Positions 11,211 through 11,710 of a stretch of DNA of 64,000 bases are shown piece by piece. The translations under genes and the position numbers were made by a program. Every line of letters begins with the position of its first letter. The stretch's first letter is position 1. Where the stretch lies: NCBI GenBank assembly GCA_024760545.1, contig CP060501.1, positions 4,356,036 to 4,420,035 on the forward strand, in the 5' to 3' direction. This DNA is from Nitrospira sp. (GTDB taxonomy: Bacteria > Nitrospirota > Nitrospiria > Nitrospirales > Nitrospiraceae). The notes beneath the pieces were generated by a model, which did no database searches, was not told where the DNA came from, and was given only the letters and a program-made list of their open reading frames with translations.

Positions 11211-11333
11211 AGAAAGATCGACCTGAGGCATGTCACAGTGATCATGGGGCGTTGTATTCCGATCCTTCCTCGTTTGTTCGCATAGGCTTCCTTACTGTAA
11301 CCGGCTCTCGATTAAAGAAAGCTAATGAAGAAG

Positions 11334-11378
11334 TCTTCATGATTTATTCATGTGGCGTTCATGTGACGGAATTATAAA
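11334..11378 (+). promoter_or_regulatory. Pho-box-like array of three 11-bp repeats with -10 element
   Basis: TTCATG occurs at 11336, 11347 and 11358, exactly 11 bases apart, giving three units of 7+4 bases (nnTTCAT + spacer, 11334-11366). This is the architecture of PhoB/OmpR-family binding sites. A -10 TATAAA follows at 11373-11378, the distance at which such arrays replace the -35 element. No good -35 is present. The regulator identity is inferred only from the spacing. Confidence 0.6.
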
Positions 11379-11422
11379 AAAGCATGAGCATACAGAGTTC
11401 ACTTCACAAGAGGAGGGATGTC

Positions 11423-11665
11423 ATGAGTGTGAAGAGTATGATGTTGACCGTTGGATTCTTGTCGATGGCTGCAACTGCTATGGCGGACACCTCAAACAGC
11501 CTTACTACCGACACACGTCGGGTCGATGTTATTGATACCCACAAGGAGCTGGTCACGCAGTTGGACAGCAACAAAGGCGGAGGTCATGAGGCGCGCGTGG
11601 ATGTCATCGGAAGTATCGAGTCTAAAGGGCCGGTATACCCTTACATTGCACCGATGAACCGCTAA
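11423..11665 (+). CDS. Tiny exported protein with duplicated RVDVI motif
   Basis: 80 residues from ATG 11423, with a strong SD (GAGGAGG). An earlier ATG at 11384 is in frame but lacks an SD and would spoil the signal peptide. Residues 1-21 are a Sec signal peptide cut after AMA; the mature peptide is about 59 residues. RVDVI occurs twice (residues 33-37 and 58-62), separated by 25 residues. The mature part ends PYIAPMNR. Not a family I recognise. It has its own promoter and terminator, so it is a single-gene unit, and a Pho-box-like array suggests control by a response regulator. Confidence 0.75.
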   Translation: MSVKSMMLTVGFLSMAATAMADTSNSLTTDTRRVDVIDTHKELVTQLDSNKGGGHEARVDVIGSIESKGPVYPYIAPMNR

Positions 11666-11680
11666 GACCTGCTGAAACTA

Positions 11681-11710
11681 CTGAGGAGGATATGGCCATG
11701 TCCTCCTCAG
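11681..11710. terminator. Bidirectional hairpin terminator
   Basis: Perfect 10-bp stem CTGAGGAGGA / TCCTCCTCAG around a 10-base loop, followed on the plus strand by ATTTCTT. It lies between the small exported protein and the convergent methyltransferase, so it probably serves both. Confidence 0.7.

Follow-up and report, generated by a model that had tools for sequence, protein, structure and literature searches.

A repeat array precedes the gene for a small exported peptide

The window examined here, a 64,000-nucleotide stretch of Nitrospira DNA, carries a gene for an exported peptide of 80 amino acids that is preceded by an array of short repeats and a −10 element (Table 1). Read from position 11325 to 11378, the array consists of ATGAAGAAGTC, TTCATG, ATTTA, TTCATG, TGGCG, TTCATG, nine further bases, and TATAAA. 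An earlier note on this DNA described three TTCATG copies at 11-base steps, which is indeed the arrangement present, and all three copies are exact. However, the note placed 10 bases between the last copy and TATAAA, whereas the actual gap is 9, and it was silent on the leading ATGAAGAAGTC, a fourth 11-bp unit located 5′ of the others. The ATGAAG of this unit and the first TTCAT together form a perfect 16-bp inverted repeat, ATGAAG-N4-CTTCAT.

For the trimer of direct repeats, allowing up to three mismatches, 100 dinucleotide shuffles of the window yield 0.07 expected matches versus 2 observed, the latter being overlapping registers of one array. Taken alone, the 16-mer inverted repeat is not significant, given that 21 of 100 shuffles contain at least one match within one mismatch. 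Nevertheless, its upstream half-site is conserved across the family.

We take translation of the peptide to begin behind the Shine–Dalgarno sequence AGGAGGG, and a start at position 11384 was ruled out as being too near the −10 element. Because a terminator-like hairpin comes after the gene, it is probably transcribed alone. The flanking genes, named by eye, are lipoyl-synthase-like upstream and methyltransferase-like, in convergent orientation, downstream. In another genome of the same species (L011 and L036 compared with window positions 11280–11300), approximately 66 more bases lie between lipA and the array, and the array itself is identical.

The peptide represents a small Nitrospiraceae family that has no match above cut-off in Pfam or NCBIfam; ArnB_C and CTC1_2 were dismissed as candidate Pfam families, as both matches fall below cut-off. 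A contig of Nitrospira sp. BO4 encodes an identical protein of 80 amino acids (100% identity).

Table 1. Positions of the array, the candidate regulator gene, and the first genes located behind sites in the window genome. Plain numbers are window positions; those beginning with C1 are genome positions.
Feature	Position	Strand	Basis or remark
Inverted repeat, 6-4-6, ATGAAG-N4-CTTCAT	11325–11340	+	Promoter-distal half of the putative regulator box; overlaps first TTCATG
TTCATG repeat 1	11336–11341	+	Sequence, genome scan, shuffles
TTCATG repeat 2	11347–11352	+	Sequence, genome scan, shuffles
TTCATG repeat 3, promoter-proximal	11358–11363	+	Sequence, genome scan, shuffles
−10 element TATAAA, 9 bp past repeat 3	11373–11378	+	Sequence; family gap 9
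Shine–Dalgarno AGGAGGG	11411–11417	+	Sequence
80-aa exported peptide gene	11423–11665	+	First gene; signal peptide predicted by eye, ends near AMA
Terminator-like hairpin, then T-rich stretch	11681–11710	+	z −5.2
P0002 gene	C1:2519713–2520405		OmpR-class response regulator
Site directly past P0002 and P0003	C1:2518041–2518094		
Two peptides, 26 and 27 aa	Beside the P0003 kinase gene		First genes
Three 26-aa relatives	C1:874206, C1:4161415, C1:4183136		First genes
303-aa lipoprotein-like protein			First gene; no family match
Slp-family lipoprotein			First gene; PF03843
219-aa exported protein	Site C1:1997970–1998023		First gene; amoC 48 bp further on
Site with no clear gene after it	C1:4061056		

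The promoter pattern recurs in the genus and family

A genome scan for the same repeat, a check proposed in the earlier note, reveals the exact trimer at two places in the 4.81-Mb window genome (three overlapping rows, the second place carrying four repeat copies), compared to 0 in the reversed control. Across the family, exact trimers are present in 8 of 175 genomes, all belonging to the same genus, again with a reversed control of 0. When up to two mismatches are permitted, 105 places emerge in 48 of the 79 genus genomes, and the reversed control rises to 1. The full promoter pattern, with up to three mismatches, occurs at 241 places distributed over 105 of the 175 family genomes and 5 of 22 genera (control 0). 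These patterns were used to scan whole genomes, and a weight matrix (114 sites) was run on extracted stretches. The matrix attains a maximum of 1.4 bits over 2.03 million reversed positions, and the sites counted score between 27 and 70 bits.

Two elements that formed no part of the trimer search pattern also appear at fixed distances. Among 101 distinct trimer-type matches, TA is found exactly 9 bp past the last repeat in 70 cases (40 of 65 when clustered at 80%), and ATGA is found exactly 11 bp before the first repeat in 68 (35 of 65). The most common alternative spacing accounts for 18 of the 101 matches for TA (gap 11) and for 4 for ATGA. Several chance-looking matches without a −10 element were retained among the 101 (L052, L053, L056, L083, L084, L093, L094, and L109).

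The array carries, at the level of sequence, the features of an operator for OmpR/PhoB-class regulators: direct repeats lie one helical turn apart in 11-bp steps that are conserved in the family, and they occupy the place of a −35 element at a fixed distance from the −10. In this respect, the geometry proposed in the earlier note is upheld. In addition, a 6-4-6 inverted repeat of 16 bp is accompanied by in-phase direct repeats, as in CopR/AgrR-type boxes.

Homologues of the peptide produce 25 matches in 16 of the 175 genomes. A site is located within 700 bp upstream of a homologue in the window genome, its same-species partner G117, G086, and G129. In G086 and G129, a small frame intervenes between the site and the homologue, making for a longer operon. 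The other 12 homologue-bearing genomes carry no site within 700 bp upstream, nor do the two peptide paralogues of the window genome. With 12 of 16 genomes lacking a site at this location, conservation of the site upstream of all peptide homologues is rejected. The earlier note would have its reading stand or fall by such conservation; the repeats are mostly absent there, which leaves the site itself standing. It is conserved instead as a regulon element that travels between genes and is no fixture of the peptide gene. In loci from other species (L015–L018 and L024), peptide homologues share another, different promoter region and adjoin a gene that by eye resembles a divergent LysR/OxyR-type gene, which might control the peptide in those species.

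A two-component system adjoins many of the sites

One site in the window genome is located directly past an adjoining gene pair. The first gene encodes P0002, an OmpR-class response regulator of 231 amino acids that carries the domains PF00072 and PF00486, and its neighbor encodes P0003, a histidine kinase of 478 amino acids. We collected 72 P0002 orthologues (at least 62% identity) from genomes with a complete listing, and a site lies within 5 kb of 55 of them. In 45 of these 55 instances, the site is downstream on the same strand, mostly at a distance of about 1.5–1.6 kb and directly past the kinase gene. Six orthologues have a site 0.9–1.0 kb upstream on the same strand, and four have one immediately upstream in divergent orientation. 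From the perspective of the sites, 72 of 147 are near the regulator, compared to an expectation of about 0.3%. In the upstream-site cases that were looked at, the first gene after the site codes for an exported protein of about 104 amino acids (the L166 example matches PepSY), and the regulator presumably shares its transcript.

Sites and regulator also occur in the same genomes. A site is found in 97 of 105 family genomes that carry a P0002 orthologue versus 8 of 70 that do not (Fisher test, 3e-29), and in 63 of 64 versus 4 of 15 genomes of the genus, although these counts ignore phylogeny, and both adjacency and shared ancestry inflate them. Eight genomes carry the orthologue and have no site at the stringency used. 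Neither a regulator nor a kinase orthologue was found in seven site-bearing genomes (G031, G058, G081, G088, G110, G142, and G143); an eighth without a regulator orthologue, G141, does carry the kinase (78% identity).

Thus, gene adjacency and co-occurrence tie an OmpR-class regulator to the array. Control by a response regulator, as suggested in the earlier note, is supported to this extent, but its attribution to PhoB itself is not: P0002 scores 183.1 bits against the NCBIfam PhoB model, whose cut-off is 296.2. Among the models listed for P0002, the best is cztR_silR_copR (TIGR01387), for which the score of 250.5 bits also falls below the cut-off of 279.2. A paralogue that is 49% identical to P0002 occurs in many genomes and may also bind the sites.

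Sites precede tiny membrane peptides, lipoproteins, and amoC

In the window genome, eight places match the full pattern (nine rows), and the weight matrix adds the site of an amoC operon together with some weaker sites. By these matches, at least nine promoters of this kind are present in the genome, including ones ahead of other genes (Table 1). Because there are at least nine apparent targets, among them the 80-amino-acid peptide, the view that this peptide serves as a regulator's dedicated output is wrong.

Open frames of 22–40 amino acids that combine a transmembrane stretch with a ribosome site are found within 330 nucleotides in 63 of the 135 distinct promoters at the loci examined, versus 63 of 2,700 random stretches. 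In five tiny-peptide families, third codon positions are the most variable, as judged by pairwise, nonindependent counts from few related sequences. At L073 (C1:2511000–2525000) and many related loci, single-transmembrane frames of 26–37 amino acids are located downstream of sites, and such frames are likely short enough for gene callers to miss. L186 and L191 each contain a second, weaker site (34.8 and 34.9 bits, respectively) located some 275 bp 5′ of the main one, and these weaker sites precede more tiny frames (MDTNWLIFGG... and MDANWLIFGA...). Positions 978–2572 of L246 in minus orientation (approximately C1:1996400–1998023) comprise a site, the 219-amino-acid exported protein, and the amoC 48 bp further on. 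The N terminus of this protein resembles the tiny transmembrane peptides, and it has relatives that likewise follow sites in L129, L147 (no Pfam match), L213, and L224.

The presence of six AmoC genes above the Pfam cut-off identifies the window genome as that of a comammox Nitrospira. P0004, encoded behind one site, is an AmoC protein that scores above the curated cut-off. Sites ahead of a divergent single amoC are found in seven comammox genomes, and in an AmoC tree of 45 rows, a clade with 100/100 support unites seven rows, one from each of seven genomes, all of which have a site upstream. No amoA or amoB was seen by eye among the frames downstream of these seven amoC genes. The site label, carried at more than 12 bits by 12 of the 45 rows, needs six changes on the tree, so site-bearing AmoC proteins also exist outside this clade. 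The rows come from the examined loci and represent a subset of the AmoC genes found, with rows shorter than 240 amino acids left out; the array-linked amoC of the window genome (L246) is not among the labelled rows, owing to the merging of identical or near-identical ones.

In G129 (Nitrospira RBC093; L194, 3933–8712, minus orientation), the regulator, the kinase, a site, a small frame, a homologue of the window peptide, a further site, and amoC lie in one row. The amoC gene of that row is divergent, and beyond it is a frame that by eye is universal-stress-protein-like.

Proposed function and alternative explanations

It is very probable that the array serves as the operator for an activator-dependent promoter, and that P0002, together with its kinase P0003, activates an envelope regulon that includes the exported peptide. 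From the promoter architecture, its recurrence, its association with the regulator pair, and the genes downstream, we infer that P0002, a member of the OmpR/PhoB class near the CopR/CzcR/SilR branch, acts with its kinase P0003 and, presumably when phosphorylated, binds to the 16-bp inverted repeat as well as to the in-phase direct repeats of 11 bp. The bound protein would contact RNA polymerase where the −35 element is missing, and transcription would begin from the −10 positioned exactly 9 bp downstream of the repeats. The exported peptide would then belong to a cell-envelope regulon together with several single-transmembrane peptides of 26–27 amino acids, outer-membrane lipoproteins, and those amoC genes that lie apart from amoCAB operons.

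The same array could instead be a true response-regulator site for some other OmpR-class protein, for example the 49% paralogue, such that the adjoining pair is merely one target. This would accommodate the seven genomes in which a site is present and no P0002 orthologue was found, and site-bearing genomes without the orthologue do encode further regulators of the OmpR class, with many first-look candidates in each genome. However, sites track the P0002 orthologue in the genus and adjoin most orthologues, and no site occurs in eleven genus genomes that lack the orthologue, though most of them keep the paralogue (E ~1e-68). We consider this explanation unlikely.

A PhoB-regulated promoter with the peptide as its dedicated output is far less plausible still. 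PhoB-like geometry consists of 11-bp direct repeats and a nearby −10 element, as is seen here, but the linked P0002 falls below the PhoB cut-off, the box includes an inverted repeat as CopR-type boxes do, and the other promoters in the window genome precede different genes. Almost no weight can be given to coincidence, such as a Shine–Dalgarno sequence and start codon read on the opposite strand. Some relaxed matches (L052, L053, L056, and L093) do look like chance, whereas the exact array is intergenic, the shuffles and reversed controls yield next to nothing, and spacing conserved to the base already refutes chance for the window site.

With P0002 and P0003 as the favored pair, the repeats mark one promoter of a hitherto unlisted regulon in ammonia-oxidizing Nitrospira, most likely switched on by a copper-type two-component regulator. 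Tiny membrane proteins and a spare subunit of ammonia monooxygenase also seem to be under the control of this regulator. The signal might be a metal or envelope stress. Copper would be a guess, suggested solely by the branch to which the regulator belongs and by the fact that ammonia monooxygenase is a copper enzyme. We speculate, as a possibility that we consider rather doubtful at present, that a comammox CopR-like system remodels the ammonia-oxidizing membrane under envelope or copper stress. A divergent stress AmoC might be swapped in, and single-transmembrane proteins of 26–37 amino acids and small exported proteins might join or protect the monooxygenase or the membrane.

A search of the open-licence literature, which leaves aside subscription papers and preprints, yielded no described motif or regulator of this kind in Nitrospira. 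How comammox bacteria regulate ammonia oxidation is, to our knowledge, nearly unmapped. The accessible portion of one report (PMC13374858) makes no mention of such a two-component regulator. The current findings resolve a promoter code to the base, point to a candidate regulator, and yield a list of putative targets that includes amoC copies outside amoCAB operons. They also expose families of tiny transmembrane proteins that gene callers likely overlook, and they make the long-standing puzzle of singleton amoC genes directly testable.

Comparison with known regulatory systems

In the PHO box recognized by PhoB, tandem 11-bp direct repeats stand in for the −35 element. The Nitrospira box likewise has tandem 11-bp direct repeats at the −35 position, but it differs in possessing an inverted half-site and in being linked to a regulator below the PhoB cut-off. 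None of the targets examined was seen to be a phosphate gene.

A closer likeness is found in the AgrRS system of the CopR/CzcR branch. According to the accessible portion of the report on this system (PMC7380067), AgrR of Cupriavidus metallidurans, a CopR relative, is a type II activator that binds a 6-4-6 inverted repeat plus an in-phase direct repeat, and the target that it upregulates most strongly codes for a small periplasmic protein. In both systems, the 16-bp box is made up of two inverted hexamers with 4 bp between them and is accompanied by in-phase direct repeats. AgrRS further resembles what is proposed here in its positive autoregulation, in its type II activation of promoters that have a −10 but a poor −35, and in its targets, among which are a porin, an outer-membrane lipoprotein, and small proteins of the periplasm such as PrsQ2 (PMC7380067). 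In contrast, the half-site is ATTACA for AgrRS and ATGAAG/TTCATG in Nitrospira, and direct repeats are optional and imperfect in AgrRS, whereas two further repeats are nearly invariant in Nitrospira. Moreover, that portion of the report names no tiny transmembrane peptides or amoC among AgrRS targets (PMC7380067).

The amoC genes have a parallel in ammonia-oxidizing bacteria, whose singleton amoC genes are reported to be part of stress responses in the accessible portion of a further report (PMC6311188). There, singleton amoC3 of Nitrosomonas europaea is stated to be under a stress regulator, sigma32 (PMC6311188, citing Berube and Stahl 2012). In both lineages, an amoC copy outside amoCAB would be under stress-type control, but this control is exerted by a sigma factor in N. 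europaea and probably by a two-component regulator in Nitrospira.
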